A stretch of DNA of 39,261 nucleotides from a virus, in IMG/VR virus record IMGVR_UViG_3300017963_000456, positions 1 through 39,261 of that record. One strand, 5' to 3'. The translations under genes and the position numbers were made by a program. The notes beneath the pieces were generated by a model. It was given only the letters and a program-made list of their open reading frames with translations. It made no database searches and was not told the DNA's origin. Shown here piece by piece: positions 1,819 through 35,418 of this stretch (positions are counted from its first letter, which is position 1; every line of letters begins with the position of its first letter).

Positions 1819-2126
1819 TCACGCGCTTTCAGATCCGCGAAGAGGTCGAGCTGCTTGAGCGCGCAATCGATGGCCTCGAAGAGACATTTTTGTCGTCTAG
1901 CGACCCATCGATAGCTGTGCTCGCCTTCGTCGAAAAGCTGTCCTCTCAGCTCGGGGCGATCAAACACGCTTACGCCCACACGGCCAAGGATCGCAACGCT
2001 CTGCCGGATCAGGTCATGCCATACATCCGAGCAATCCGTGACGCCTGCGCGGCTCTCGAGGCATCCCTTTCCGGACCTCCAGAGGACACCAACCGGAGTC
2101 TGGAGGACGATCGGTGGGACGGCTGA
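1815..2126 (+). CDS. Small helical protein of unknown function
   Basis: 103 residues starting at ATG 1815, overlapping the previous stop by ATGA, with AGGAGAG at 1804-1810 as ribosome binding site. The frame could be extended upstream, but that would run inside the preceding gene. The protein looks entirely helical (REEVELLERAIDGLEE, IRAIRDACAALEASL), with no enzyme motif. Its position between neck-region genes suggests an accessory virion or assembly protein; this is inference from context only. Confidence 0.65.
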   Translation: MITRFQIREEVELLERAIDGLEETFLSSSDPSIAVLAFVEKLSSQLGAIKHAYAHTAKDRNALPDQVMPYIRAIRDACAALEASLSGPPEDTNRSLEDDRWDG

Positions 2127-2611
2127 GAGGCGATTACGAAGCCCCTTTGATGCGGAGTGTCGCCGAGGAGGTCAATGACCTTTTCGGGGTCAATCGCGAC
2201 TCCTACCTGTTCCGGTGGTCCCCGGCCAATAACAATACGATCAAGGACCCGTTGTGGGACGAGCCCACGTCGACGGCCAGATTCGTCCGGTATCCAATCC
2301 AGGTCCATTATTCCGAGTACGACCGGACGACCGAGAGCGACGACTCCGGACGGGACCGCAGTCTCGACGTCAGCATCTACATATCGCTCAACCATCTGAT
2401 AAAGGCGCAAGTCCCCAAGGATGCCGAGGGGGAGTCGGTCGCTCCCGGCGACGTGGTAGGATTCCACTGGCGCGGCGAATACGTCGAAGTTGACGTGATC
2501 GAGGCAAAGCGAGACGGGTGGGTGAATGATTCCGATTCATTCGTTGGTTACAGGCTCGATTGCAAGCGGCGCGACAAGTACGTTTCGGAACGAAAAACAG
2601 GCGATGACTAG
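2114..2611 (+). CDS. Putative head-tail connector / neck protein
   Basis: 165 residues from GTG 2114, with GGAGG at 2102-2106 seven bases upstream; it overlaps the previous gene by 13 bases. After a helical N-terminus (APLMRSVAEEVNDLFGVNRD) the sequence is rich in beta strands (RFVRYPIQVHYSEY, DVVGFHWRGEYVEVDVIEA, FVGYRLDCKRRDKY). A small beta-barrel of this layout fits head-closure or adaptor proteins of tailed phages. No diagnostic motif is visible, so the role rests on position upstream of the tail genes and on the predicted fold. Confidence 0.4.
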   Translation: MGRLRGDYEAPLMRSVAEEVNDLFGVNRDSYLFRWSPANNNTIKDPLWDEPTSTARFVRYPIQVHYSEYDRTTESDDSGRDRSLDVSIYISLNHLIKAQVPKDAEGESVAPGDVVGFHWRGEYVEVDVIEAKRDGWVNDSDSFVGYRLDCKRRDKYVSERKTGDD

Positions 2612-2622
2612 GAGCAAGTCAC

Positions 2623-3435
2623 ATGAATAGCGTCAAATTTGCGGGCAACGGGGAAGCCTCAAGACCGATCATCCTGCAGGACCCGCAGGGATATAAAAGA
2701 GCAAGTGCAGCCTGGCACAAGTCGGCACAGGCTGCGCAGCGAGCATTCGATGACGTGAGCGTTCCGGGAGGGGGCGACTGGGGAAACGTCCTAGGCAATC
2801 CTGATTGGCACGTGAAAGCATACGACAAGGCCATCGACATTATGGGCGACGTGAAAAAGCTCACCGCCGAAGGCACGCCGCTTATGGCGGCAGTCGATAA
2901 AGCGATAGATGAGTTGAAATCGAACAAATCCAAAGTCGAAAAAGTCGTTCGTAAGTTTCGCGGAGAATTGAATGATTCAAACAGCGAGGGATGGCATTCA
3001 GTGCAGTATTTGCACGGGATGGCAAAGCGCGCGCTAAAGGAGATGTTCATGGCTCGATATGACGAAAGTATTGCTTCTGTCTCCGGCCTGAGCTCGATGA
3101 TGGAATCTGCCACAAGGGCCATCGTGACCGAGGGCGAATTTGATGGCGAATCCGATGAGGACGCCGCGTCTGCGGAGTCTTCGATTTCTGACGATCTTCT
3201 CGAGGCCATTCTGGTCATGATGGCCGGGACTGCGAATATCGCTGATGCGGGGCCGGGGGAGTCAGGCAATTTCATTGGCGACCTTGACGAGCAGGGGATG
3301 GCCGATGCGCTGCTCTATGTAGCGCGCGAAATGCTTAAGTCCAAAGGACGATTTAAGCAAATCGCACGCGGCGTCAAACGCAATCCCAGTAGCGCGATCC
3401 GCAGTGCCATTGAGGCCGCGAAGGCTGCCAAGTGA
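2623..3435 (+). CDS. Unrecognised 270-aa structural-region protein
   Basis: ATG 2623 has GGAG at 2611-2614 upstream. The protein is mostly helical, with an acidic serine-rich stretch in the middle (GEFDGESDEDAASAESS). It ends in a basic helical tail (KRNPSSAIRSAIEAAKAAK). The pattern of helices, acidic linker and basic tail could suit a scaffold or a protein that binds DNA or capsid, but no family is recognised. The stop codon overlaps the next GTG start, so the genes are co-translated. Confidence 0.6.
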   Translation: MNSVKFAGNGEASRPIILQDPQGYKRASAAWHKSAQAAQRAFDDVSVPGGGDWGNVLGNPDWHVKAYDKAIDIMGDVKKLTAEGTPLMAAVDKAIDELKSNKSKVEKVVRKFRGELNDSNSEGWHSVQYLHGMAKRALKEMFMARYDESIASVSGLSSMMESATRAIVTEGEFDGESDEDAASAESSISDDLLEAILVMMAGTANIADAGPGESGNFIGDLDEQGMADALLYVAREMLKSKGRFKQIARGVKRNPSSAIRSAIEAAKAAK

Positions 3436-3635
3436 ATCACAATCCCTCACAGATCATTGACGCCATCCGCGTCGCGGCAGACTTGCCCGGCGCGGAATCG
3501 CTCAGGCCGGCCCTCCTCGACGGCGTTCGGCTGATCGCGGGGGCCGTCGCGGCGGCGGCTGACCTGCGTCGCCGCGCTGACGCGGTTCAGACGCAGCGTT
3601 CGAGTCTAGTGGAGGCTGGCGCAACGGATGCCTGA
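3432..3635 (+). CDS. Small alanine-rich helical protein
   Basis: 67 residues from GTG 3432, which overlaps the TGA of the preceding gene. The composition is alanine- and leucine-rich and helical (DGVRLIAGAVAAAADLRRRA). It is not a clear membrane segment, because arginines and an aspartate interrupt it. It lies immediately before the tubulin-like gene and overlaps it by eight bases, so it may be made in step with it. It does not look like TubR, the helix-turn-helix partner of plasmid TubZ. Function unknown. Confidence 0.5.
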   Translation: MNHNPSQIIDAIRVAADLPGAESLRPALLDGVRLIAGAVAAAADLRRRADAVQTQRSSLVEAGATDA

Positions 3636-4908
3636 GGCGCGCTACAGGTACGGCGGTCCTATAGACGGTCGCACCGTGGTTCGCATCAAGTCGTATGCTG
3701 TTGACCGTATTAGGCGCCGCACGATCCTGCTAGCATCGGGCGAGTGCTGGACAGAAGAATACGGGCCGGATGGTTGGCCGACCTTGATAACTAATGGGCG
3801 AACGCGCGTTCGCATTCAGACCGAAGGAGACCTGGCTATGGATATGGACTTCCCACAACTCGACGACCTTTCGACCGAGGAGCAAAGTACCGGCGCGATC
3901 GCCGATGAGGCGCCGAAGGCCGAGAAGGTCTGCTTTGTGGGGGTTGGCCAGGCTGGATGCAAGATCGCAGATACGTTTTGGGGAAAGGGATACCGGAGAG
4001 TCCTGCTTATCAACACGACCGAGCAAGACATGGCCGGCCTGACCTGTCCGAATCGCGTGATCATGAAGGGCGCCGGCCAGGGAGCCGGCAAGCAGCGATC
4101 GGTCGGCCGCGCCGCCGCCGAGGCAGCTCGAGAGGAAATCTTGCGCGCCATGACCCGCGCCTTTGGGACGGACTTCGAACGCATCGTCGTCTGCACATCG
4201 GGCGGAGGCGGCACCGGATCGGGGGCTAGTCCGGTCATCATTGAGATTGCGCGTCAGTTCTGCGTGGAGATGGAGAAGCCTCGCAAGGTCGGCGCCATAG
4301 TCGGCGGCCCGCGCAAGTCAGAAGGGGCAGCCGTGTCGGCTAACCATTCGGCGTTGCTGGCTGAGCTGCACGCCATGACCCCGACGCCCATGATCCTCAT
4401 GGACAACGAGCGTATCGCCAAGCTCTATCCGACGGCGTCCGTCGCGCAGTTCATGTCGATCGCCAATCAGAATCTTTGTGGCCTTTACGACGTCTTCAAT
4501 GGCCTCGCCGCTCAGCCGTCCCCATATTCGACCCTAGACCCCGCCGATTACCGATCGGTGCTTGATGCGGGGGTTTTGGTCTTCGGCATGACGACGGTCA
4601 AGGACGCAGCCGACCCGACTTCGATCGCGGCGGCGGTCGAAAAGAACATGGCCGGAGGACTGCTGTCTGACTCGGCAAAAATCCAGCATGCCTCGCATGC
4701 GGCCGGCGTCATCGTTGCTTCCAAGGCGCGGCTTGAAACCCTTGCTCAAACCACTCTGGATCGCGGATTCGAGGCCCTGAATCGACTGATCGGAACTCCG
4801 GGCCTGGTCATACACACCGGGATCTACCAAGGTCCAGATAGTTTAGGTGACAGGGTCTTGGTCTATTGCATCGCGTCGGGACTGAAATGGATGCCGGAGA
4901 GCCGATAA
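3628..4908 (+). CDS. Tubulin/FtsZ-superfamily GTPase (phage tubulin-like)
   Basis: 426 residues. The GTPase core starts near residue 98: VCFVGVGQAGCKIAD (tubulin/TubZ-style GQAG nucleotide loop, 105-110), LLINTTEQDMAGL (127-138), the tubulin signature GGGGTGSG (192-199) and STLDPADYRSVL (301-312), which matches the T7 catalytic loop with its two aspartates. Proteins of this superfamily bind GTP and polymerise; in phages, PhuZ positions capsids and TubZ moves DNA. Residues 1-70 are an extra strand-rich domain. ATG 3838 in the same frame, with AAGGAG at 3824-3829, could give a 356-residue form starting MDMDF. A 16-bp palindrome lies between the two starts. The gene sits in the virion operon, an odd place for a cytoskeletal gene. 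The family call is firm; the role is open. Confidence 0.88.
   Translation: MPEARYRYGGPIDGRTVVRIKSYAVDRIRRRTILLASGECWTEEYGPDGWPTLITNGRTRVRIQTEGDLAMDMDFPQLDDLSTEEQSTGAIADEAPKAEKVCFVGVGQAGCKIADTFWGKGYRRVLLINTTEQDMAGLTCPNRVIMKGAGQGAGKQRSVGRAAAEAAREEILRAMTRAFGTDFERIVVCTSGGGGTGSGASPVIIEIARQFCVEMEKPRKVGAIVGGPRKSEGAAVSANHSALLAELHAMTPTPMILMDNERIAKLYPTASVAQFMSIANQNLCGLYDVFNGLAAQPSPYSTLDPADYRSVLDAGVLVFGMTTVKDAADPTSIAAAVEKNMAGGLLSDSAKIQHASHAAGVIVASKARLETLAQTTLDRGFEALNRLIGTPGLVIHTGIYQGPDSLGDRVLVYCIASGLKWMPESR
3798..3813 (+). promoter_or_regulatory. 16-bp palindrome GCGAACGCGCGTTCGC, copy 1
   Basis: A perfect inverted repeat inside the 5' part of the tubulin-like gene, 24 bases before the internal ATG at 3838. 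The same motif occurs at 11986, 20820 and 37373, always in the same orientation. It could be a DNA operator or promoter element, or an RNA hairpin with a GCGC loop. Confidence 0.7.
3824..3829 (+). promoter_or_regulatory. Strong internal ribosome binding site for ATG 3838
   Basis: AAGGAG lies eight bases before ATG 3838, in frame with the tubulin core. It is better placed than the GGAGG at 3611-3615 that serves ATG 3628 at twelve bases. It supports a second, shorter product. Confidence 0.55.
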
Positions 4909-5189
4909 TGGCGGACGATCGCATTCGGGCGCTCCTTTCCGAGCGCCAGGTTCATTGCACGCTTCGCAAGCAGCCCAAGGCTCTGACGGATTTTTTCTAC
5001 ATGCGCCTGCGCGAGTATGCGGTTCTCGGCGAGATCCAGGGCGAGGAGGCTCAGCTTCTAAGGCCGAGGCTTTTCACGTTTCTAAAGTTCATCGGCAAGC
5101 CCAACGACGTCTGGCGGAAGGAAGCTCTTATCCGCGATCAGTGGCCCTTGCTCGAGCCAGAGATTCGCCAATATGTCCCGGCGCCCTGA
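4908..5189 (+). CDS. Small protein of unknown function downstream of the tubulin-like gene
   Basis: 93 residues from ATG 4908, which overlaps the previous TAA (TAATG) and has GGAGAG upstream. The sequence is amphipathic and helical (KALTDFFYMRLREYAVLGEI, LLRPRLFTFLKFIGKP) with a charged, tryptophan-containing end. No known family is recognised. Its translational coupling to the tubulin-like gene makes it a candidate partner or adaptor, but it could equally be a neck protein, since the next gene resembles tail-completion proteins. It ends by ATGA-type overlap with the next gene. Confidence 0.6.
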   Translation: MADDRIRALLSERQVHCTLRKQPKALTDFFYMRLREYAVLGEIQGEEAQLLRPRLFTFLKFIGKPNDVWRKEALIRDQWPLLEPEIRQYVPAP

Positions 5190-5767
5190 TGTCAAAGCCG
5201 ATACTCGAAACCAAGGGACTCGACGAGGTTCAGGAATTTATCCGAACGCTCCCGCGCCGTGTCGAGGTCATCAAGCGGTACGTCACCAAGCTAATCGCTG
5301 ACGACATGGCTGGCCAGGTTACTCAGCGGGCTCCCAGTAACACGTTGGGCCTGCCGGCGAACTATCCCGATATAGAGGTCGCCGCTGTCGATGATCCGAA
5401 GAACCCAACCTTTGCCGCCATCTATGTGGGTCGCCCGACACGGGCCGGCGCTCTCGACCCAGCAACAACGGTTCTGTACCCGCGCCGTTACGATGACCGT
5501 GATGAATCCCCGATCTCTAGCGATTGCGGCGCTCGAGAAACTGGGGCCGTTCCCAATCGACGTTTTGCCAAGTGCCATCCCCAGGGATCGGGGGTATTTC
5601 ATGTTTCGACGAGCTCGACCAGACGAGGTAATGGCGCTTCGCGAAAGGGTCATAAGTCGTCGGGACGAGATACGGGCGGTGGTCACCGGAGCCGGATTCG
5701 ACGAAGAGGTGACGCCGGACGACATAGCGGCCTACTCCGACGTGGTTTTCGAGGTCCTTCGTCGTGA
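5189..5767 (+). CDS. Tail-completion-like protein, N-terminal part; frame shifts near 5500
   Basis: ATG 5189 overlaps the preceding TGA. The first ~100 codons read sensibly (LDEVQEFIRTLPRRVEVIKR, TFAAIYVGRP, ATTVLYPRRYDD) and fit small tail-completion proteins found near head-tail genes. After about base 5500 this frame becomes Arg/Ser/Gly-rich and looks like out-of-frame translation. The sensible protein continues in the next frame (ALEKLGPFPIDVLPSAIPRD). Joining them needs one base skipped around 5490-5510, either by a sequencing or assembly indel, a real mutation or a +1 recoding event. The end at 5767 is therefore probably not the biological end. Confidence 0.5.
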   Translation: MSKPILETKGLDEVQEFIRTLPRRVEVIKRYVTKLIADDMAGQVTQRAPSNTLGLPANYPDIEVAAVDDPKNPTFAAIYVGRPTRAGALDPATTVLYPRRYDDRDESPISSDCGARETGAVPNRRFAKCHPQGSGVFHVSTSSTRRGNGASRKGHKSSGRDTGGGHRSRIRRRGDAGRHSGLLRRGFRGPSS

Positions 5768-5987
5768 ATTCGGCTATGGGGGCGCCGCGCAGCCTCACTG
5801 GCGCCCTGCGGTCCGGGCTGTTTTACGCGGGTCGACCATGAAGCATCTGGCCGGAAGCCAGGCGCTTGCCGATCTTTTAGTAAGCCCGAACTACCACGGC
5901 TGGGTCCGGCTTGGTATCATCGGCTCAAACGTCACATACGGCGAAATAGAATCGCTTAGCCGATTCCAAAACAAGATCCTTGGCTGA
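5502..5987 (+). CDS. Tail-completion-like protein, C-terminal part in shifted frame
   Basis: This frame has good composition from about base 5500 to the stop at 5987 (RPDEVMALRERVISRRDEIR, DIAAYSDVVFEVLRREFGYG). ATG 5502 or 5493 is available but neither has a Shine-Dalgarno, and the upstream part of the frame looks non-coding. It is most simply the second half of the gene starting at 5189. As an intact fusion it would be about 265 residues. A separate overlapping gene is the alternative. Confidence 0.5.
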   Translation: MNPRSLAIAALEKLGPFPIDVLPSAIPRDRGYFMFRRARPDEVMALRERVISRRDEIRAVVTGAGFDEEVTPDDIAAYSDVVFEVLRREFGYGGAAQPHWRPAVRAVLRGSTMKHLAGSQALADLLVSPNYHGWVRLGIIGSNVTYGEIESLSRFQNKILG

Positions 5988-6369: not shown

Positions 6370-7068
6370 GTGCCGCCCAAGTACACGCCCCGCACCGGAA
6401 ATGTCTTCATTCGCAATTTTGACGAGGGAGTCGTTAAGCGCCTCGGCTCCTATGAGGCTACCTTCGACCAGCAAGGGTACGGGCCGCGTTACGGCTATTG
6501 GCTCGACGTTCCGACTTGCACGCCGATTCAGGTTCCCGTCATCTTCAACCAGCCTGAACAGATTTTTGAGAAAAAGATCTATCCGTCGATTCTGATCACA
6601 CGAGATCCCCCTGATCTCGCGATGCAGCGCTGGCATTCTGTTAAGCAGCTCGAGTATTTCGCAGGCGTCCTTGGCACGGAGACGACCGCTATCGTTGGCG
6701 CGACGACGGTCTCCGGGTTCGGCCAGGTCGAGGTCAAACAGCAGGCGATGCCATATGACATCACGTATACCGTCGCCGCCTATGCCCGATACGAGCACGA
6801 GGCGATCCCTCTGCTTCAGGCCATCCTTCGCAAGTTCACGCCTTACGCCAAGATTCCTGTGGTTGACAGTCTGGGCGACACGAGGTGGTACACGACCGTC
6901 AACGAGGGCGGGGTTCAGGATCTGTCCGAGATCGCGGATATCGCGGATCGGGTCAAGGCGTATGCCCAGCTAGTCCGCGTGGAGGCCGAGCTCGACCTCT
7001 TGGACCCGGTCACTCACTCCACGGTCGGATCTATCGAGTCGACCATCGGTGTGTCGGGAACTTTTTGA
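6370..7068 (+). CDS. Tail terminator / sheath-completion-like protein
   Basis: 232 residues from GTG 6370, with GGAGG at 6360-6364. The middle is strand-rich (MPYDITYTVAAYARYEHEA), then helix and strand (PLLQAILRKFTPYAKIPVVD), then LSEIADIADRVKAYAQLVRV and an acidic strand. This order resembles tail terminators and T4 gp15-type proteins that cap the tail and stop tube and sheath growth. It sits directly before the sheath gene, as expected for that role. The assignment is by pattern and context, without an active-site motif. It is the last gene before a 106-base non-coding gap. Confidence 0.5.
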   Translation: MPPKYTPRTGNVFIRNFDEGVVKRLGSYEATFDQQGYGPRYGYWLDVPTCTPIQVPVIFNQPEQIFEKKIYPSILITRDPPDLAMQRWHSVKQLEYFAGVLGTETTAIVGATTVSGFGQVEVKQQAMPYDITYTVAAYARYEHEAIPLLQAILRKFTPYAKIPVVDSLGDTRWYTTVNEGGVQDLSEIADIADRVKAYAQLVRVEAELDLLDPVTHSTVGSIESTIGVSGTF

Positions 7069-7174: not shown

Positions 7175-8983
7175 ATGTCTGAGTTTCTAAGCGCTGGCGT
7201 CTTCACCGAGGAGGTTCGATCCGGCGAAAGCGCGATCCTCGGCGTTTCGACGTCTACCTTCGCATCGGCGGGATGGCTACCACGCGGCCTAGAGAATAAG
7301 GCCGTTCTGACTACGAGCCTGCCCGACTATTTCCGTAAATGGGGCGGATATTGGAAGAACAGTGATCTTCCGCTTGCCGCGACGGCTTTTTTCAAGAACG
7401 GCGGGTCGCGCGCATACTTCGTTCGCGTTTGCCCGTCTGACGCGACGGCCGCGACCGCGAGCGAGCCATCGAAGTGGAAGTACGATGCCATCTCGCGCGG
7501 CGCGTGGGGAAACAACGTCCGACTCGTGATTCGCGGAAACGAGAACAACTACGATTTCAACACTGCGATCTTCTCGAAGTACGACATTGAGCTTCAAGAA
7601 GAGAGCAGTGATGGTGCCGGCGACTTTGCGATCGTCGAGACCTTCGAAGCGGTGGATCTGTCGGACGCTGACGCTGCCGATTACTTCCCGGAAGTTGTCA
7701 ATGACGACGCCACTGGTTCCAAGATCGTCAAGATCAGCGATCTCGGCGGCGGCATCCCGGCAAGTCTGATCCCATCTGCGACGACGGATGAAGCCGTCGA
7801 TACCGGCGACAACGTCCAGACGTCATTCGCGGCGACCCTCGCGAACCCGACCATCGCGGCGCATACACTGAAGGTGAAGGTCGATGGCGTCGTTGCCGCC
7901 AAAGACAACGGACGCGGTGTGCTGACGCTGGTCGGCACTGTCTTCTCAGGCGTTTCCGGGTCGATCGACTATGAGACCGGCGATCTCGCGATCGCATTCA
8001 CTCCCGCCCCGGGCCTCGGAGAGGCGATCACTGCCGACTACATCAAGAAGGGTGTCGACGAGATCGTCTACGACCTTTCCGGCGGTACGGACGGCACATC
8101 CGTTTCTGCAAACGACATCGTCGATGCTTCTCTGTCGGCTGACAAAAAGGGCCTCTATGCCCTTGATGATGTCGACGAGGTCTTGAACATTGGCCTGCCA
8201 GACTTCGACGGCGACGTTGTGGCAGCCAACGGGATCATCGACTATTGCGCGGGCCGAGAGGATTGCTTCGCGATTCTGGGATGCGCGCGCGGCATCGATG
8301 CCCAGGACGCCAAGATCTACCGCCAAGTGACCCTCAACAGCCTGTCGAGCTATGGCGCCCTTTACTATCCGGGCGTCAAAGTATCCGACCCCTTAAAGAA
8401 TGGTCGCTCTCGCGCGATTTCTGCGGTTGGGCATATCGCTGGTCGATACGCTTACACTGACCAGAAGCGCAACGTGGCGAAGGCGCCAGCCGGAACAGTC
8501 GACGGAGCCCTGGCGTTCACTACGGGTCTTGAGCGAGTCCTGTCCAAGGGCGAGCGCGATCTCATTTACCCGGTGAACATCAATCCATTGATCGACACCC
8601 CGGCAACTGGCCGCGCGATCTGGGGCGCGAGGACGCTGGAGCTTAGCGGCGATTTCACTCTTGTTCCGGTCCGTCGCCTCTTCATCTTCCTGAAGCGATC
8701 CGTGTGGCTCAGCACACAAGATCTCGTTTTTGAGCCGATCGGTGACGATCTCTTCTCGATCACGAGCTTCCGGATGACCGCATTCTTGAACCGCCTCACG
8801 TCGGAGAATTATTTCTCCAGCCGTGTCCCGGCTGAGGCGTTCCGGGTTGTGGTCGACAATTCGAACAACACCGACGCCACGAAGCTCGCTCGCCAACTCA
8901 TCACTGATATCTTGGTGAGCACTCAGACTCCCGGTGAATTCATTCGATTCAGGTTCCAACGCTCGTTGAAGGCGCTCAGCTAA
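7175..8983 (+). CDS. Contractile tail sheath protein
   Basis: 602 residues from ATG 7175, after a GGGGAGG site. The N-terminus has the typical sheath opening: SAGVFTEEV, a strand region with VSTSTFASAGWLPRG, then AATAFFKNGGSRAYFVRVCP. The C-terminus has the conserved sheath core: AIWGARTL, RRLFIFLKRSVWLSTQDLVF, then FRVVVDNSNN. The middle (~150-350) is a variable surface domain with acidic strands. Sheath subunits form the contractile outer tail tube and drive the inner tube through the host envelope. The length is usual for larger myoviruses. It starts the tail operon and is followed by the tube gene. Confidence 0.95.
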   Translation: MSEFLSAGVFTEEVRSGESAILGVSTSTFASAGWLPRGLENKAVLTTSLPDYFRKWGGYWKNSDLPLAATAFFKNGGSRAYFVRVCPSDATAATASEPSKWKYDAISRGAWGNNVRLVIRGNENNYDFNTAIFSKYDIELQEESSDGAGDFAIVETFEAVDLSDADAADYFPEVVNDDATGSKIVKISDLGGGIPASLIPSATTDEAVDTGDNVQTSFAATLANPTIAAHTLKVKVDGVVAAKDNGRGVLTLVGTVFSGVSGSIDYETGDLAIAFTPAPGLGEAITADYIKKGVDEIVYDLSGGTDGTSVSANDIVDASLSADKKGLYALDDVDEVLNIGLPDFDGDVVAANGIIDYCAGREDCFAILGCARGIDAQDAKIYRQVTLNSLSSYGALYYPGVKVSDPLKNGRSRAISAVGHIAGRYAYTDQKRNVAKAPAGTVDGALAFTTGLERVLSKGERDLIYPVNINPLIDTPATGRAIWGARTLELSGDFTLVPVRRLFIFLKRSVWLSTQDLVFEPIGDDLFSITSFRMTAFLNRLTSENYFSSRVPAEAFRVVVDNSNNTDATKLARQLITDILVSTQTPGEFIRFRFQRSLKALS

Positions 8984-9020
8984 GTCAGAACGAACGGGAA
9001 TATGACGGAGGGTTGGACAG

Positions 9021-9527
9021 ATGGCACGCGCGTCAAACACGGACTACTTTCACAATTTCAAGTTCCACATGCGTGTGGTCAGTTCGACCACCGTCGGCGG
9101 GGCTACCGTCGGAGCTCAGGGCGGATTCACGAATATCGCCATGCCTGAGATCACCGTCGAGACGGCGGAGTATCAAGAGGGGACGATGCTTTACCGCCGG
9201 AAATATCCGGGCCAGGTGAGTTTCAGCGACGTTTCGGTGTCGCGCGGCGTCGTCAAAGGAAACACCGAGCTGTATGACTGGATTCGCGCGTCATACCTTG
9301 GCTCGGAATATCGAGCGGATGTGGAGATTCGCCACATGCATCGCGACGAGGTCACAAGCCTCACCGACTTCACAGCGGTGGCAGCCAAGCGTAAAGTAAA
9401 GCTTTACGAGGGCATGGCAACGCGGGTTAAGCTCGGGGGCGACCTCGACGCACAAAGCTCCGACGTCTCGGTCGAGGAATTCGACATCGTGTACGAGAGC
9501 GCCGAGCTCGAAAACCCGGCCGCCTAA
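9021..9527 (+). CDS. Tail tube protein (T4 gp19-like)
   Basis: 168 residues from ATG 9021, with GGAGGG upstream. The pattern fits the tube family: a conserved start (YFHNFKFHMRVV), GGFTNIAMPEITVETAEYQE, then RRKYPGQVSFSDVSVSRGVV, a helix ELYDWIRASYLG, and a last strand VSVEEFDIVYESAEL. Stacked hexameric rings of this protein make the inner tail tube through which DNA passes. The sheath-then-tube order is standard. A second, longer tube-family gene lies at 10949. Confidence 0.88.
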   Translation: MARASNTDYFHNFKFHMRVVSSTTVGGATVGAQGGFTNIAMPEITVETAEYQEGTMLYRRKYPGQVSFSDVSVSRGVVKGNTELYDWIRASYLGSEYRADVEIRHMHRDEVTSLTDFTAVAAKRKVKLYEGMATRVKLGGDLDAQSSDVSVEEFDIVYESAELENPAA

Positions 9528-10948: not shown

Positions 10949-11503
10949 TTGGCGAGAGATAGGCTCAGCGACTTCCTTCAGGTCGGCAATTTCCACCTCA
11001 TTGACGTCTCGTTCACTATCCCCATGGTCATGCTGCCCATCTTCGGATTCGCGCGCTGCACGGCGCCCGAGGTCTCGATGGATATGTATCGGATCAAGGA
11101 GGGAAACTACGAGTGGTCGCGCAAGGTGATCAAGGGAGCCGACGCTCAGCCGATAACGCTCGAGCAAGGGGTCCAGATCTTCAATTCCGATTTCGGCGAC
11201 TGGGTTCGAAAGGCGATCACGGGGCGGGTTGATCCTAAAAACCTCATGATCGTTCACTTTTCTCGCATGGGATTTGGAAACGGCGGGACGGTTGGGGCCG
11301 CCGATACCGGGAACGACTTTGTCGGCGAGGCGTTTAGCTTCGAGTTCGTCCGCCGGATTCCTGGTCGGGCATGGATCCTCTACAATTGCCGCCCTTCCAA
11401 TTGGAAGGTAGCCTCTGACTTCGATGCCATGAGTCAGGACATCTCTATGCAGTCCATTTCGCTCGAGTACGAGGAGCTGGACGAAATCTCGCTCGGCGTC
11501 TAG
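10949..11503 (+). CDS. Second tube-family protein (tube paralogue, possible baseplate-tube adaptor)
   Basis: 184 residues from TTG 10949; GAGGTGAT at 10939-10946 supports this rare start. The pattern resembles gp19-type tube proteins: LSDFLQVGNFHLIDVSF, FARCTAPEVSMDMYRIKEGN, EWSRKVIKGADAQPITLEQG, then FGDWVRKAITGR and a late strand WKVASDFDAMSQDISMQSIS. In myoviruses, extra tube-fold proteins such as T4 gp48 and gp54 start the tube on the baseplate. This paralogue is longer than the main tube protein and could do the same. A minor tube subunit is the alternative. Confidence 0.6.
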   Translation: MARDRLSDFLQVGNFHLIDVSFTIPMVMLPIFGFARCTAPEVSMDMYRIKEGNYEWSRKVIKGADAQPITLEQGVQIFNSDFGDWVRKAITGRVDPKNLMIVHFSRMGFGNGGTVGAADTGNDFVGEAFSFEFVRRIPGRAWILYNCRPSNWKVASDFDAMSQDISMQSISLEYEELDEISLGV

Positions 11504-13283: not shown

Positions 13284-16259
13284 ATGGACAAAAATCGACT
13301 GGGTGTCGGCATCGTTTTCAGTGGCCTAGACGATGGATTGTCTAAGTCCGCTAAGGCGGTCGCCAACGACCTCGACGAAACTACCAAGGCGATGAGGGCG
13401 GCGGAGGAGGCGGCCAGGGGCCGAGGCGGGCGCGGCTTCATGGCTGACCTTCGCGAAGGTCTGACGATGCTGTCGATCTCTCGGATCGGCAGCACGATCA
13501 ATGATGTCAACGATGGGGTCTCAGGATCGTCGCGAGGATTCAATGATCTAGCGAAATCCATCGACACTACTGGCGCAAAATTGCGGACAGCTCTCGACCC
13601 CAAAACAGCGTCTCAGTTCACTCGGTCGATCACGGGCCTCGTCGCTGGGATGGGCGTGACCGGCGACCAGGCGCAGCAGATCTCGAATGCGCTGGTGAAC
13701 TCCGGCGCATCTCTCAGTGAGATGCGAACCACCATGCCGATGATTGGAACACTCGTCGGCAAAATGGGCATGGACGCCGAAAAGGTCGCGTCATCCTTTG
13801 CCATGGCAAACGGCAATCTCAACATGACCGGACGCGAAGTTAACGACCTGACGAAAGAGGTCTTCAAGCTTCAGCGTGACTACCAGCTGACCAATTTGGT
13901 TGAGGGGCTTCCGGAGCTATTCGAAAACGCCTACACCAACCTGATCAAGTTCGGAAAGATCAACGGGAAAGAGGCTGCTCGCACGGTGCAAGCTATGTCT
14001 AGGATGACGGCGCAGTTTCAAAAGCTCGGATTCTCGCAGCAACAGGCCGGCAAAATGTCGACCGACTTCAACGACAAGATCACCGATATCCGCGAGGCAT
14101 TCCTTGATCTCGAGGCCGGTCTCGATCCGCAAAGCGACGTTGTCCAGGGCATTTATGATGCGTTCGGAGCTGGCGGCCTCAATGCCACGGGAATCATCGA
14201 GGCTATCAAATCCGGCAAGCACACTCCGGACGAGATCATGAAGCAGATGCAGGGCATGGTCGCGTCGATCACGGACCCGACTGAAAAGAACAACGCCATT
14301 CAGCGTTTGAAGCGCCTATTCGGTCCCGAGATGACAGCCGTGCTCGACCCGTTGGCCGGCCAGATGGCCGATGTCGGCAAGAAAGCGCAGGAGATCGGCA
14401 AGGGAGTAACGGCCGAAAAGGCATTCGCCGATGTCTCTCGAGCTATGGGCGGAACGCTCGAGTACACCGAAAAGCTCAATCAGGCTGCCCATGACTGGAA
14501 GGACGCGATTACTCAGCTGACCATCAAGGGTGGGCTGACAGCGGCCATGAACGCGGACACGAAGGCGACTCATGAGCTGTCCAAAGCCGTGACTGATGCC
14601 GATTCAAAACTGGGAGCGTTCGCGCGCACGATCGAGGGTCTAAAGCTTCAAGGCCTGTCTTACTTGTTCCCGGATGCCGCAGCTGCTCGGCCATTCCTCC
14701 GCGTTTTGTCTGACATGATTTACCCCCTAACCTCTCTGATGGGGCTGATGACAATCTTCGGGAAGCCGCTAGCGCTTCTCGGCAAAGGCTTGATCTTGCC
14801 TTTCAAGCTACTAGGAAAGTCGACGAAGCTCGCTTCCGCCGGTATCCAGGGCGTCGGATTCGCGCTAGGCAAGACCGCGAAAGTCGCCAAGATGGCCTTC
14901 GCGGCGATTTCATCGCCTATCGAAACGCTCGGATCCATGTTCGGATGGCTCAAAGAGATGATCTCGCCAATCATGCGGATTGTCGGCAAATTGATGCCGT
15001 CGGCGATGCGCCGCTTTGGCGGCATAGCGGCTTCGATGATGGGCGGCCCGGTCGTCGCGGCGATAGCGGCCGTCGTTGGAGCCTTGGATCTCCTCGCCAT
15101 GGCATGGCCGCATCTCACTGATCTAGTCCGCAAGTTCTCGCCGGAAATCGCCGACGTCATGGATTCGATCGGAGAGAATGTCGGAGCTGTTTGGGACAGC
15201 ATCAAGGAGGGCGCCTCCTTCGCATGGGATACGATCCTTGATGGATGGGACACTCTGAAAGACGCCATGATGTCTGGATGGAAGGTTCTCAAGCCGTTTC
15301 TAGTCCTTGGCTTCAAGGCGATTGCCACCGTGGCTGGCGTCTACTTGGCGATTGTCGAGAAGGTGGTCGTGTCCCTGTGGAAGGGCATCAAATCTGTGTG
15401 GAGCTCTGGAACGAAATTCATCGGCGATCTATGGCAGTCTGCAGGCGATAAGCTAGCGGCAACGTGGGAGGCGATATCGAGCTTCTTCTCAGAAAAATGG
15501 AAGAGCTTTAAAGGCATGGCCCAGGAAGCGATGAAGCCGATATTTGAGATCGGCGCCTCGATCAAAAATGCCCTTGGCATCGGCGGCGAGGGCATGGGGA
15601 CCTTTTGGGACGACATGCTCGTCAAGCCGTTTCAGCGCAAGCGCGACGAGATCCTCGGTCTTGTATCCAAGCTCGGCGCGCAGATCGTCAACATCCTCCC
15701 TGATTGGGCGAAGAACGCATTCGAGGATGTCTCGTCGTTTGCGTCGGGAATCCTGAACAGGGGCCGAGAGATCGCCGGCTCCATAACAGGGGCCGTGGGG
15801 ATCGGCGGCGACGGTGCGACGGATGCGGGAGCAGGGCTATCGGGTGCGCCGCTCGCAGCCACCGAGGGAGATGCGGCTGGTGCAAAGATCCTCAAGTTCC
15901 CGAGCCCGTCGTCTTCGGCGGCTCAGGATATGGGGATGTTGGCGGGATTCGCCGAGGACGAGCCAGAGGTCAAGGCGATCCCGATCAAGCGCCAGAAGGG
16001 GGCCACGGCAGCCGCTCGCGCGGCCGGGGTCGATCTCAGTGCCCCCAGAAGGCCGCAGGTCGGTGACAAAAACTTTCAGGCAGTTGTCGACGCCATCACC
16101 GAACAGCGCGACACGCTAGCGAAGCTTCTCGCGGCTCTTCTCGACAAAGACACGACCATTGAGATCAAGGGCGACATGCGCAAATTCTTGAAAGCCACAA
16201 ATGCTGCAGCTGCTGATGATGCTGGTCGCCAGGGACTGAACGCCGCAGTCGGGAGGTAG
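13284..16259 (+). CDS. Tape measure protein
   Basis: 991 residues from ATG 13284, the largest gene here. Long helices dominate the first 500 residues (SKSAKAVANDLDETTKAMRA), with typical tape-measure segments such as FNDLAKSIDTTGAKL. Hydrophobic stretches near residues 578-609 (MMGGPVVAAIAAVVGALDLL) and 673-699 (FKAIATVAGVYLAIVEKVVV) could insert in the host membrane on injection. The C-terminal part is rich in Ala, Gly and Pro. The protein sets tail length; at about 1.5 angstrom per residue it predicts a tail near 150 nm. It follows the chaperone and precedes the baseplate hub genes, the standard order. Confidence 0.92.
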   Translation: MDKNRLGVGIVFSGLDDGLSKSAKAVANDLDETTKAMRAAEEAARGRGGRGFMADLREGLTMLSISRIGSTINDVNDGVSGSSRGFNDLAKSIDTTGAKLRTALDPKTASQFTRSITGLVAGMGVTGDQAQQISNALVNSGASLSEMRTTMPMIGTLVGKMGMDAEKVASSFAMANGNLNMTGREVNDLTKEVFKLQRDYQLTNLVEGLPELFENAYTNLIKFGKINGKEAARTVQAMSRMTAQFQKLGFSQQQAGKMSTDFNDKITDIREAFLDLEAGLDPQSDVVQGIYDAFGAGGLNATGIIEAIKSGKHTPDEIMKQMQGMVASITDPTEKNNAIQRLKRLFGPEMTAVLDPLAGQMADVGKKAQEIGKGVTAEKAFADVSRAMGGTLEYTEKLNQAAHDWKDAITQLTIKGGLTAAMNADTKATHELSKAVTDADSKLGAFARTIEGLKLQGLSYLFPDAAAARPFLRVLSDMIYPLTSLMGLMTIFGKPLALLGKGLILPFKLLGKSTKLASAGIQGVGFALGKTAKVAKMAFAAISSPIETLGSMFGWLKEMISPIMRIVGKLMPSAMRRFGGIAASMMGGPVVAAIAAVVGALDLLAMAWPHLTDLVRKFSPEIADVMDSIGENVGAVWDSIKEGASFAWDTILDGWDTLKDAMMSGWKVLKPFLVLGFKAIATVAGVYLAIVEKVVVSLWKGIKSVWSSGTKFIGDLWQSAGDKLAATWEAISSFFSEKWKSFKGMAQEAMKPIFEIGASIKNALGIGGEGMGTFWDDMLVKPFQRKRDEILGLVSKLGAQIVNILPDWAKNAFEDVSSFASGILNRGREIAGSITGAVGIGGDGATDAGAGLSGAPLAATEGDAAGAKILKFPSPSSSAAQDMGMLAGFAEDEPEVKAIPIKRQKGATAAARAAGVDLSAPRRPQVGDKNFQAVVDAITEQRDTLAKLLAALLDKDTTIEIKGDMRKFLKATNAAAADDAGRQGLNAAVGR

Positions 16260-20850: not shown

Positions 20851-22518
20851 GTGGCGGTTGAACTCAACAAGGTGCTTTATGTCGATCAGGACTTCGGGAC
20901 GGCTGTAGCCGCGATCCAGAACTTCCTGAGCTCGGAGTACCCGGACGAGTACAACGACTATATAGGCGCCAACCTTGGCCAGGCATTGATAGATATCATC
21001 GCCTACGCCGAGCAGAATCTGCTTTGGTATCTGAACCGCAAGGTCACTGATCTTTATTTCCCGACGGCCCGCACTCCCAACGCGGTCTCCAAGATAGCGC
21101 GCATGTTGGGGTACAAACCGAAAACGGCGACCTATGCTCAGGCGTCGGTAACGATCCGTTTGAAAAAGGGTCCGTATACTTTCCCGGTCACGATCAATCG
21201 CGGTTTCAAGCTCCGAGGTCCGAACCGCACGACCTGGGAATATAGAAGCGACGTCCCGATCGTCTTCGCCCCGGGTGAGCTCGTCAAGACGCTGACGGCG
21301 TCGCAGGGCGAGACGATCACCACGAACTTTATTTCATCCGGCGCGACCAATCAGGTCTTTGAGCTGCGCGGCATCTCGACCGGGAAATTTGTGGCTGGCG
21401 CCGACTTCCAGGTGTTTGTCGATGGGGTCGAGTGGGAGGAGTACGGACAGGTCCCATTCTCGGTGATCGAGGCGTATGAAACGAATCTGGTGACGAATCC
21501 GCCATACCTCCGATTTGGGGACGGCGTTCAGGGAAAGATCCCGCCTCAGGGCGCGGCAATCGAAGTCAAGTATGTGGTTTGCGACGGATTCAAGGGCCGC
21601 ATACTCGCGGGCGCCATCAAGGAGCCGATCTCGAACCTTGTCTCGAATTTCCAGACCATCCCGCTCGAGATCACCCAAACGGCAGCTTCCGCTGGCGGCG
21701 ATGACCCCGAGGATCTCCGGTCTATCGTCGTAAACAGCCCATTGTTTCAGCGGACCCAAGATCGGGCGATCACCAAGGGCGACTATGACTTTCTGTCGAA
21801 TCAATATGAAAACGTGGCGCGAGCGAACGCTTCTATAGTGCGCGGCGTTTCCGGCGACCTGGCGGTGCAGAATATCTACTCTGTATTCCGCGAGCAGATC
21901 GGCAAGCTGATGCTTAACTCATGCGAAACAGTCTCCGGATCTGGAGAATATGTTTCTGGGGTCGCGGGGGCGGTGTCTGGATACCTCGATATTCTCTATG
22001 ACCATATCGACTTGAATTTCACGGATTCCTGTAATGGCAACCTCGTCCAGGTGGCCGTGTTGTCGAAGGACGCGAATCGTCGCTATGTCGCGCCCCTGCA
22101 GGAGACATTAGACGGCCTCAAAGCTCATCTCGAAGAGCGCAAGGACGCGACCCACACGCTTGAGGTTCTATCCGGAACGGCAAACGTGGTCGACGCAACG
22201 ATCACGGTGCGCGTCAAGGTCAGTCAAAACGCGATCGAAGATGACGTCGTCCAGGAGATTAGCGACGCTCTCGAGAAAAGTGATGAGACACCATTCGGAC
22301 TCCTCGTCGAGCGTCCATTCGATCAGAGCCTCTATCTGTGGAACGTGGAGCAGGCTTTGATCGACGGCATCGAAGACGTGAATAATCGCGTCGTCTATAT
22401 CGACGTCGAAATCACTGGTCCGGCCGAGTTTCTCGACGATTACGGCAATTTGATTATTCCCAATGGATACGTCATTCAAAACGGCGGCGTCACGATCGTG
22501 AAGCTGCCTCGATATTGA
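20851..22518 (+). CDS. Baseplate wedge protein gpJ-like
   Basis: 555 residues from GTG 20851. The N-terminal part (LGQALIDIIAYAEQNLLWYL) and the conserved region AGGDDPEDLRSIVVNSPLFQ, RTQDRAITKGDYDFLSNQYE fit the Baseplate_J / T4 gp6 family. The C-terminal part has DATITVRVKVSQNAIEDDV and a wedge-arm domain. The protein forms the baseplate wedge that triggers sheath contraction. It follows gp25 as usual and is preceded by palindrome copy 3, so its transcription or translation may be controlled separately from the hub genes. Confidence 0.92.
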   Translation: MAVELNKVLYVDQDFGTAVAAIQNFLSSEYPDEYNDYIGANLGQALIDIIAYAEQNLLWYLNRKVTDLYFPTARTPNAVSKIARMLGYKPKTATYAQASVTIRLKKGPYTFPVTINRGFKLRGPNRTTWEYRSDVPIVFAPGELVKTLTASQGETITTNFISSGATNQVFELRGISTGKFVAGADFQVFVDGVEWEEYGQVPFSVIEAYETNLVTNPPYLRFGDGVQGKIPPQGAAIEVKYVVCDGFKGRILAGAIKEPISNLVSNFQTIPLEITQTAASAGGDDPEDLRSIVVNSPLFQRTQDRAITKGDYDFLSNQYENVARANASIVRGVSGDLAVQNIYSVFREQIGKLMLNSCETVSGSGEYVSGVAGAVSGYLDILYDHIDLNFTDSCNGNLVQVAVLSKDANRRYVAPLQETLDGLKAHLEERKDATHTLEVLSGTANVVDATITVRVKVSQNAIEDDVVQEISDALEKSDETPFGLLVERPFDQSLYLWNVEQALIDGIEDVNNRVVYIDVEITGPAEFLDDYGNLIIPNGYVIQNGGVTIVKLPRY

Positions 22519-33036: not shown

Positions 33037-33051
33037 AGATTGAGGGCAACA

Positions 33052-34077
33052 ATGAAAAAATTTCTCCTCTCCCTACTCCTCGCAGTCCCGTCATTCCCCG
33101 CCTTCGCGGGCGACCGGGTCATCATCAATCCCGAGCAAGATGGCGACCTAAAGATCAAGGTGAACGATGGCGGGTCAGTCACGGACGTGATGACGTTCCA
33201 GGGCTCTAGCGGGAATGTTGGCATCGGGACAACCGCACCATCGAGCACGCTCACCGTCGCGGGCGGCGAAACTCGAATCACGGACACGAGCGGGAACCTC
33301 ATTCATCGTTTCGAGCAGGACGGATCACAGACCGGGTACAGGGTAGGGAACGCGGTATCTCACTCTTATCTTAGATACAATGGCTCCTTCGCCTCACCTA
33401 CTGCTGTCGCCAACGGCGAGACGTTGAGCCAGATTCTATTCCGAGGGTACGATGGAAGTAATGCTCTCAGCGCAGCGTCAATCACGGCGACTGTAGACAA
33501 CCCCGTCGGCACCAACGACATGCCGGGTAGGTTGATATTCTCCACTACAGCAGACGGAGCAAGTAGCCCATCTGAACGCATGAGGATTGCCAACACAGGC
33601 AACGTCGGAATCGGTACCAGCTCGCCTAGTGAGAGGCTTGAGGTGAGAGCGACCGGAACATCCAATGTTATGCGAGTCACCTCAGATCAGACGACCGCTA
33701 GGATCATATTCAACACAAGCGGAGCGGATAGAGGGCAGATCACTAGCTCAACTGCGGACGCCATTCGGTTCAATAACGGGGCTGGTAGCGAAATAGCTAG
33801 AATCTCATCAACCGGATTTTTCGCCACACCATCTACCGGGGCAATCTACAACGGCACTGACGCCTCAAATGAGATTGGATTTTTCGCTGGCAGTAACGGA
33901 GGAGCGACTACTGACTCATGCCAGACCATTTGTGACGGAGATAGGGCAGGCCATGGTCTGAGTACGGGCACTGCGGCTTTGTGTGTTGGCGGGTGGAATC
34001 AGCCGACTGGAGTGACAATCACCTGTTCCGACACATCTAATATCTTCAAAAACTGCGTATGCTTCGGACGAAGGTAA
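33052..34077 (+). CDS. Secreted fibre-like protein with signal peptide
   Basis: 341 residues from ATG 33052, after TGAGGG. Clear signal peptide: MKKFLLSLLLAVPSFPAFA then GDR. The mature start (GDRVIINPEQDGDLKIK) matches that of the virion fibre tip at 31955. The shaft contains SGNVGIGTTAPSSTLTV and GNVGIGTSSPSERLEV, repeats typical of trimeric phage fibres and of cell-surface fibres in Bdellovibrio-type bacteria. The C-terminus is cysteine-rich (CQTICDGDRAGHG, TCSDTSNIFKNCVCFGRR), which suits disulfides outside the cytoplasm. Export of a phage fibre homologue is unusual; adhesin, decoy and host-surface modification are options. Confidence 0.75.
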   Translation: MKKFLLSLLLAVPSFPAFAGDRVIINPEQDGDLKIKVNDGGSVTDVMTFQGSSGNVGIGTTAPSSTLTVAGGETRITDTSGNLIHRFEQDGSQTGYRVGNAVSHSYLRYNGSFASPTAVANGETLSQILFRGYDGSNALSAASITATVDNPVGTNDMPGRLIFSTTADGASSPSERMRIANTGNVGIGTSSPSERLEVRATGTSNVMRVTSDQTTARIIFNTSGADRGQITSSTADAIRFNNGAGSEIARISSTGFFATPSTGAIYNGTDASNEIGFFAGSNGGATTDSCQTICDGDRAGHGLSTGTAALCVGGWNQPTGVTITCSDTSNIFKNCVCFGRR

Positions 34078-34084
34078 ACACAAA

Positions 34085-34342
34085 ATGCGCCTACTCCTCA
34101 TCCTCCTAGTCCTACTCGCCGGATGCACCACGACCGCACAGCCGGAACGCTGGGAGCTGCCGACGAGCGAGAAGATCATTTGCTTGCGCTACGAGCAGGC
34201 CGAGTGCGGTTTGTCTCTGCTGTCGTGCGGTGACGATCACTCGGTAGACTTCGAGTGCTTGACCGAGGCAAAATATTTAGGCCCTGGTGAATACCTTGAG
34301 CCAGATTTTTACGACGAGCCAAATGAGGACGAGTCGCCATGA
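34085..34342 (+). CDS. Small lipoprotein
   Basis: 85 residues from ATG 34085. A lipoprotein signal with lipobox LLAGC puts the lipidated cysteine at residue 14. The mature part has four more cysteines (LRYEQAECGLSLLSCGD, DFECLTEAKY) and an acidic C-terminus (DFYDEPNEDESP). Six bases after the preceding secreted fibre-like gene and overlapping the next, it likely belongs to that secreted set. The function is unknown; a surface anchor or superinfection factor are possible. Confidence 0.7.
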   Translation: MRLLLILLVLLAGCTTTAQPERWELPTSEKIICLRYEQAECGLSLLSCGDDHSVDFECLTEAKYLGPGEYLEPDFYDEPNEDESP

Positions 34343-35418
34343 GTAGGTCTTACCGCACCATTGTAGCGTTGTGCTTCCTTGTCGGGCTCGCGTCCCTTGT
34401 CGGGGCGTGGACGATCAAGGAGACGAAGACCGATCAGGATCTAGACTTCTATGTGGCGCCTGGCGGGACGCCGACGAAGGCGTTGTCGATTGATGGCGCG
34501 ACGGGTTCATCTGAAATAGACGGATCATCAGACACGGTACAACTCAACATCAAAGGCCACACGACTCAGACGAATAGTGTATCGCCGCTGCTTCGCCTTC
34601 AGGGTGGTGGTGCTTATATTCCTGACCTTTGGATCACACGATCCGCAACAGACGTTGACTCCCCATCTGCTCCCATAAGCGGTAACTCGGTCGGCGCGAT
34701 AACCTTCAAGGGTTACGACGGGAACTCTTACGAGGAGTCAGCTTCAATAAGGTCGCTAGTTGACGGGACACCGGGCGATGGAGATATGCCTGGGTCTCTT
34801 GCGTTCTCGACTACTCCAGATGGAACCGCTACTCGCGTAGAACGCATGCGAATCGACAACGCTGGCAATGTCGGCATTGGGACAACTTCTCCGGCTGGAT
34901 TGACGCATATTTCAAGAGCGGTTAGCGCAGGAGACGTAAAGCTAATCATAGAAAATTCCCAGGGAACCGGAAGCACAACAGAGCGAGCCGTGCTTGAGTT
35001 AAAGCCTTCTCAGACTCTAAGCGTCCATGGCGCTCAAGTGAGAGCTGTCAGAGATGACAATTTTGTGGCTAATCCAGCCGGACGTGATGTCGGTCTTGAG
35101 TTCGTTGTAGTGCCTAATGATAACCCTTCTGTCGCGATGAAAATAAACAACACAGGGGGCGCCATTATATATGACACCGGAAACAATGGCGGTAACGTGC
35201 CGCATGCTTGCAACCGAGTAGTAGGCACACCTGTTAACAATCAGACATCCACAGTATCGTGCGCTGCTGGCGAGAAAGTTATTGGTGGTGGATGTCAGTC
35301 GGATCTGCCTAACAGCCCATTGAGTAGAAGTTATCCATCTAACGACACTACCTGGACTTGCGTATATACGACTTCCGTTAACTCGAATATAGCCACCGCC
35401 ATCTGCTGCGACTACTAA
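34339..35418 (+). CDS. Second secreted fibre-like protein
   Basis: 359 residues from ATG 34339, overlapping the previous stop by four bases. N-terminal signal or membrane anchor (RTIVALCFLVGLASLVGA). The mature part shares the fibre-shaft motifs of the 33052 protein (AITFKGYDGNSYEESASIRS, RMRIDNAGNVGIGTTSPAGL) and the ALSIDGATGSSEI start motif. The C-terminal part is cysteine-containing and different (VSCAAGEKVIGGGCQSD, TTWTCVYTTS, TAICCDY). It could form a trimeric surface fibre with the other secreted protein. Confidence 0.75.
   Translation: MSRSYRTIVALCFLVGLASLVGAWTIKETKTDQDLDFYVAPGGTPTKALSIDGATGSSEIDGSSDTVQLNIKGHTTQTNSVSPLLRLQGGGAYIPDLWITRSATDVDSPSAPISGNSVGAITFKGYDGNSYEESASIRSLVDGTPGDGDMPGSLAFSTTPDGTATRVERMRIDNAGNVGIGTTSPAGLTHISRAVSAGDVKLIIENSQGTGSTTERAVLELKPSQTLSVHGAQVRAVRDDNFVANPAGRDVGLEFVVVPNDNPSVAMKINNTGGAIIYDTGNNGGNVPHACNRVVGTPVNNQTSTVSCAAGEKVIGGGCQSDLPNSPLSRSYPSNDTTWTCVYTTSVNSNIATAICCDY

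Follow-up and report, generated by a model that had tools for sequence, protein, structure and literature searches.

Phage tubulins are known mainly from two settings, the nucleus-forming phages that encode PhuZ and the TubZ partition systems. PhuZ filaments carry capsids to the packaging site (PMC13282480; PMC12908238), homologues of PhuZ occur in huge phages (Al-Shayeb 2020, PMC7162821), and Iyer 2021 (PMC7824862) mentions that jumbo phages have two distinct representatives of FtsZ/tubulin. That phages without a nucleus carry FtsZ/tubulin proteins is already known from the annotation of phage G and from Iyer 2021. The literature covered, with one relevant survey lying outside it, held no description of the group considered here or of its placement in a virion operon. 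The window, that is, the whole 39,261-nucleotide stretch of DNA analysed, which comes from an uncultured tailed phage, has a confirmed open frame of 426 amino acids at 3628-4908, and its product (P0001, with residues numbered along that frame) belongs to this group.

Judged by its sequence and its modelled structure, P0001 is a member of the tubulin/FtsZ superfamily, with the fold of both the GTPase domain and the activation domain. The preliminary description of this DNA, made from the letters alone, had reached the same family call from a GQAG loop, a GGGGTGSG signature and the acidic residues of a T7-type loop, and the call is upheld by matches to Pfam Tubulin (PF00091; E 7e-18, 66 bits with a cut-off of 33) and Tubulin_2 (1e-8) and by a top phmmer match among PDB sequences to FtsZ (9v7v, 1e-14). 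Structure prediction, suggested there as a check, gives the tubulin fold: in the AlphaFold model, built from 57 aligned sequences, pLDDT in the core is mostly above 90, and comparison with FtsZ, CetZ and TubZ structures in the PDB returns E of about 1e-21 to 1e-23 and TM-scores of about 0.7-0.83 by target length. The sequence marks of the superfamily are present, namely a GGGTGSG-type signature, the T7 acidic residues and the guanine-site Asn. The GQAG loop occupies residues 107-110; G105, G107, Q108, G110, N129, G152, G193-195, G197, N260, N280 and D304 are invariant in the 57 relatives, and position 307 is Asp or Glu in 56 of them. Together, the fold match and the conserved residues exceed chance expectation by far.

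Translation probably starts at 3838 rather than 3628, to judge from the nucleotide context and the alignment. An AAGGAG Shine-Dalgarno sequence at 3824-3829 lies 8 bases ahead of the ATG at 3838, the N-terminus of the relatives aligns to P0001 from residue 71, and the codon score of 3628-3837 is -0.05, compared with 0.31 for the tubulin core and with a mean of 0.38 and a minimum of -0.03 for coding 70-codon windows. The extension is missing from the relatives, and its pLDDT in the model is mostly 35-74. With a start at 3838 there is no overlap with the upstream gene, and so, of the overlapping starts that had been described around this gene, only the downstream one persists, where the tubulin stop and the next start share TAATG. 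At its C-terminus P0001 runs 3 residues beyond the last position that is conserved in the fold, and the tail of its megaphage relatives is about 68 residues long. A loose pattern picks out a PDIPMP-like peptide in 24 of 59 relatives, mostly of P0001's own subgroup, and places it in most cases 27-29 residues ahead of the GxGQxG loop; in P0001 the equivalent stretch reads FPQLDD, which suggests that the motif has decayed or diverged there. The peptide is conserved at the tubulin N-termini of L191, L203, L231 and other loci and is a candidate docking motif.

Table 1. Features of the tubulin gene and its surrounding operon in the window.
Position	Strand	Feature	Evidence or remark
2114..2611	+	Neck-region gene	phmmer 1.3e-9 to G018 7418-8065; follows the head-tail adaptor in L208's phage
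2623..3435	+	Gene, part of the small insert carrying the tubulin	no family match, no homologue in the relatives fetched
3432..3635	+	67-aa ORF directly 5' of the tubulin	codon score 0.22
3628..3837	+	In-frame 70-codon upstream extension; might be an alternative start, but is probably not part of the family's sequence	
3838..4908	+	Tubulin/FtsZ-superfamily GTPase, likeliest translated extent, 356 aa	PF00091, fold model, Shine-Dalgarno, relatives' N-termini
4081..4224	+	GTP-binding region, GAG (residues 152-154) to GGGGTGSG (192-199)	
4534..4548	+	T7 synergy loop LDPAD (residues 303-307), predicted catalytic acidic residues	
4908..5189	+	93-aa gene, start overlapping the tubulin stop (TAATG)	codon score 0.22
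5189..5987	+	Neck-region gene, split in two frames	phmmer 2e-15 to G018 8568-9389
6370..7068	+	Probable tail terminator / sheath stabiliser	phrog_227 at 0.029; G018 homologue in the same place, 1.8e-39
7175..8983	+	Contractile tail sheath	phrog_23 2.9e-50
9021..9527	+	Tail tube	phrog_4542 1.9e-14
13284..16259	+	Tape measure protein	phrog_58 2.6e-20
20851..22518	+	Baseplate wedge (gp6-like)	phrog_219 5.6e-34; the tubulin follows its homologue in L208's phage

In a contractile-tail operon, homologues of two neck genes flank the tubulin gene; the sheath gene follows 2.3 kb downstream on the same strand, with tube, tape measure and baseplate genes beyond (Table 1), which bears out the earlier placement of the tubulin among neck and tail genes. 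Genes homologous to the flanking ones (2114-2611 and 5391-5987/6370-7068) occupy the corresponding position of a T4-like virion operon whose upstream part holds portal, protease, major head protein and head-tail adaptor. The gene at 5189-5987 is broken into two frames where two bases, at about 5514, set the window apart from the near-identical contig L001, which matches the window at 99.98% identity over 14.9 kb and extends it upstream; because L001 differs there, the split probably reflects a difference in assembly or sequencing. The tail-terminator label of 6370-7068 draws on a weak PHROG match and on synteny, since an AlphaFold model from two sequences had a pLDDT of 32.5. No sigma-70-like promoter was found on the plus strand between position 1 and the tubulin gene.

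Other features of the window and of contig L001 can be recorded here. An 83-bp direct duplication (773-855 and 1148-1230, 93% identical) opens two adjacent genes and encodes MKTAGQSLLxDVAAVAAMLSEW, which may be a targeting or propeptide segment that the two share. The genes at 9021-9527 and 10949-11503 both belong to the tail-tube family phrog_4542, of which the collinear L208 phage also has two, and the neighbouring fibre genes at 33040-34077 and 34339-35418 match the same tail-fibre families, phrog_9942 and phrog_18345. Upstream of the virion genes, L001 carries at 2327-3805 a 493-aa gene with an N-terminal NUDIX domain and a long C-terminal part.

Scans with one protein at a time, P0001 or the tail sheath, recovered the near-identical contig alone, and tblastn of P0001 gave no match in 50,697 cultured phage records and nothing beyond weak TubZ-like matches in plasmids. 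A pattern search found one distant relative, which opened the family; the relatives gathered comprise 41 loci, contigs of 180-480 kb among them, 80 more that partly overlap, and three further members in metagenome-assembled bacterial bins. When the other window genes were compared with the megaphage loci by phmmer, the tubulin was the sole gene shared. PHROGs contains no dedicated family, and members of the group match PhuZ and one unknown family weakly.

On sequence grounds P0001 belongs to a distinct phage tubulin group and is not a PhuZ, a TubZ or a host FtsZ. It scores 342 bits with a profile of 59 uncultured-phage relatives, 78 with TubZ, 70 with FtsZ/CetZ and 39 with PhuZ; these profiles are unequal in size, and the fair comparison with the last three is the 313 bits obtained with a profile of five relatives. 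F290 and N291 do not vary within the group, and in the same alignment no FtsZ, PhuZ, TubZ or phage G sequence combines the two. Along with Y122 and Y400 they are specific to the phage group as against FtsZ, several other group residues being common to TubZ, and P0001 has both the high profile score and these four residues that mark the group (L126-L166, L188-L264). In the trees PhuZ splits off at 100/100 and FtsZ/CetZ at 99/100 without P0001, so that the protein falls outside host FtsZ; nesting within the sampled FtsZ/CetZ is ruled out with good support. The distinct clade suggested in the preliminary description holds in so far as profile scores set the group apart from PhuZ and TubZ, and as a single clade the phage group can be drawn only tentatively, with support of 61/83 in the careful tree and 86 in the quick tree. 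P0001 sits on a long branch. For its deep branching, AU tests of low power do not reject a tie of P0001 with FtsZ/CetZ at the base (p 0.51, 0.35) or with PhuZ (p 0.38), and they likewise leave standing the phage group joined to PhuZ and the phage group held together.

The proposed link to structural genes gains support from the recurrence of virion-operon placement in other members. In six members of the group (the window, L208, L201, L213, L219 and L232) the neighbours of the tubulin gene are packaging, head, neck or tail genes, and its slot shifts within operons that are otherwise homologous. Contig L208 (51.8 kb) is collinear with the window operon, running from portal, head protease, major head protein and head-tail adaptor through the homologues of 2114-2611, 5391-5987 and 6370-7068 to sheath, tubes, hub, tape measure and baseplate, but its tubulin gene follows directly after the baseplate wedge, and the neck genes that flank the insert in the window are about 0.5 kb apart with no tubulin between. 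These are two related operons with different tubulin slots. L201, L213 and L219 share a homologous block of TerL (66% identical between L201 and L213), a portal-like gene and two further genes, in which the tubulin gene sits between TerL and the portal-like gene, past the latter, or one gene beyond that. The tubulins of L213 and L219 have closer relatives than that of L201, as if the gene had been repeatedly replaced or moved. In L232 it is followed, 2 kb on, by genes for a T4-type portal and head protease; in the L243 cluster a relation to the portal was looked for and could not be shown. The neighbourhood changes five times on the tree among 19 members labelled by the analyst. In most relatives, the megaphage subgroup included, the tubulin gene is near replication, helicase, DNA polymerase or nucleotide genes; in the megaphage subgroup and others its neighbours also include DnaB, an ATP-dependent protease and glycosyltransferases, and it is about 30-45 kb from the sheath gene where both share a contig.

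The nuclear-shell family phrog_4795 was found in none of the 26 uncultured tubulin-bearing records (31-481 kb, several of them fragments, with the window a 39-kb fragment whose record overlaps that of L001) and not in phage G, while the positive controls phiKZ and 201phi2-1 scored 1.8e-232 and 1.2e-220. On this ground the group seems not to go with a phage nucleus, within the sensitivity of a single profile that distant homologues could escape; the window itself covers 39 kb of a genome whose remainder may hold a shell gene. TubC-like iterons were absent within 5 kb around the tubulin gene in the window and in L208, and a family search, as distinct from a direct TubR search, gave no TubR-like match among the tubulin neighbours.

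We propose that P0001, with its active site intact, would bind and hydrolyse GTP, would form dynamic filaments in the infected cell, and would use them to position packaging sites, procapsids, assembling virions and/or the genome that fills them, with no phage nucleus. For this combined proposal, in which a filament driven by GTP would place either the phage genome or intermediates of packaging or assembly in the absence of a nucleus, we put the chances at about even. The fold, the conserved residues, the relatives and the gene order are observed, and the GTPase activity, filaments, timing and cargo are predictions; the cargo in particular is suggested by analogy with capsid transport by PhuZ. 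The gene is probably co-transcribed with the neck and tail genes, from which late action would follow, although gene position does not prove timing. A more specific version, in which phage tubulins of a third, widespread group serve as a late, nucleus-free packaging and assembly cytoskeleton expressed from the virion operon, can be put forward only tentatively. Counting against an assembly role is the position of most relatives near replication genes, which fits genome handling equally well or better, and P0001, which is long-branched, may have changed function. The main rival takes up this point: the filament would segregate or position DNA in the manner of TubZ or PhuZ, and its place in the virion operon would be incidental. 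Adjacency to replication genes (also in L200) agrees with such a DNA cargo, as do Y122, D134, N239, D259 and N280, which are common to TubZ and several of which occur in phage G gp138; the repeated placement in packaging, head and tail runs and the failure to recognise a TubR-like neighbour or iterons argue the other way, and we regard a DNA-cargo filament as possible, if doubtful.

A decoy or inhibitor of the host FtsZ ring, blocking division during infection, would suit the FtsZ-type fold and the FtsZ chains that head the structural matches in the PDB. P0001 is, however, only 20-24% identical to FtsZ and ends without a C-terminal peptide, and a full GTP site and T7 loop kept in 57 relatives from unrelated phages are unlike a simple inhibitor, which makes a decoy improbable. 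Reuse of the tubulin fold in a structural or scaffold protein of the neck or tail, with no dynamic polymer, might be read from the positions between neck genes in the window and after the baseplate wedge in L208; the slot nevertheless shifts between related operons, most relatives lie outside virion operons and the catalytic residues are retained, so that the chance of such a scaffold is slimmer still. Recent passive capture of a host FtsZ without phage function is very improbable and was already disfavoured: the AU tests do leave the basal tie to FtsZ/CetZ, but the FtsZ/CetZ split excludes P0001, the profile scores diverge (342 against 70 bits) and the four marker residues are those of the phage group.

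So large an environmental group, with no detectable shell gene and with tubulin genes placed among those for packaging, head, neck and tail, would imply that cytoskeletal positioning of phage replication or assembly is commoner than the phage nucleus. Its proteins also lend themselves directly to experiment, since their GTP sites are complete, their tails are short and the peptide conserved at the N-terminus is a candidate hook for cargo.

Among named proteins, the nearest to the group are Bacillus phage G gp138 and UniProt A0A6J5RW92. The former (JN638751) is, like P0001, a phage-borne tubulin-family GTPase that aligns over the length of the fold (25.8% identity to L123, 24% to P0001); it differs in its long branch of unsettled position, is FtsZ-like by annotation only, and has nucleotide-metabolism genes (thymidylate synthase, DHFR, thymidine kinase) as neighbours. 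A0A6J5RW92, an automatic entry named 'FtsZ Cell division GTPase' from an uncultured Caudovirales phage, is the top viral structural match (27% identity, E 8e-34) and is likened to P0001 by name and structure match alone. Bacterial FtsZ and archaeal CetZ share the fold and GTP site and provide the top PDB matches in sequence and structure, but at 20-24% identity they form a separate split, and the T7-loop Asn of FtsZ is replaced by T302 in P0001. TubZ differs in its score of only 78 bits and in the TubR-like neighbour and iterons that were not recognised near the P0001 gene, and it resembles P0001 in Y122, D134, N239, D259-N260 and N280 and in a TM-score of about 0.68-0.75 to B. cereus TubZ. 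PhuZ (phiKZ, 201phi2-1, RAY) has different residues at G105, N129, P228 and N260 and the 39-bit score against 342, and PhuZ phages form a nucleus, whereas no shell gene was found in the relatives of P0001. PhuZ is nonetheless, like P0001, a phage tubulin with an LDxxD T7 loop, and through its transport of capsids it may be the functional analogue of P0001.
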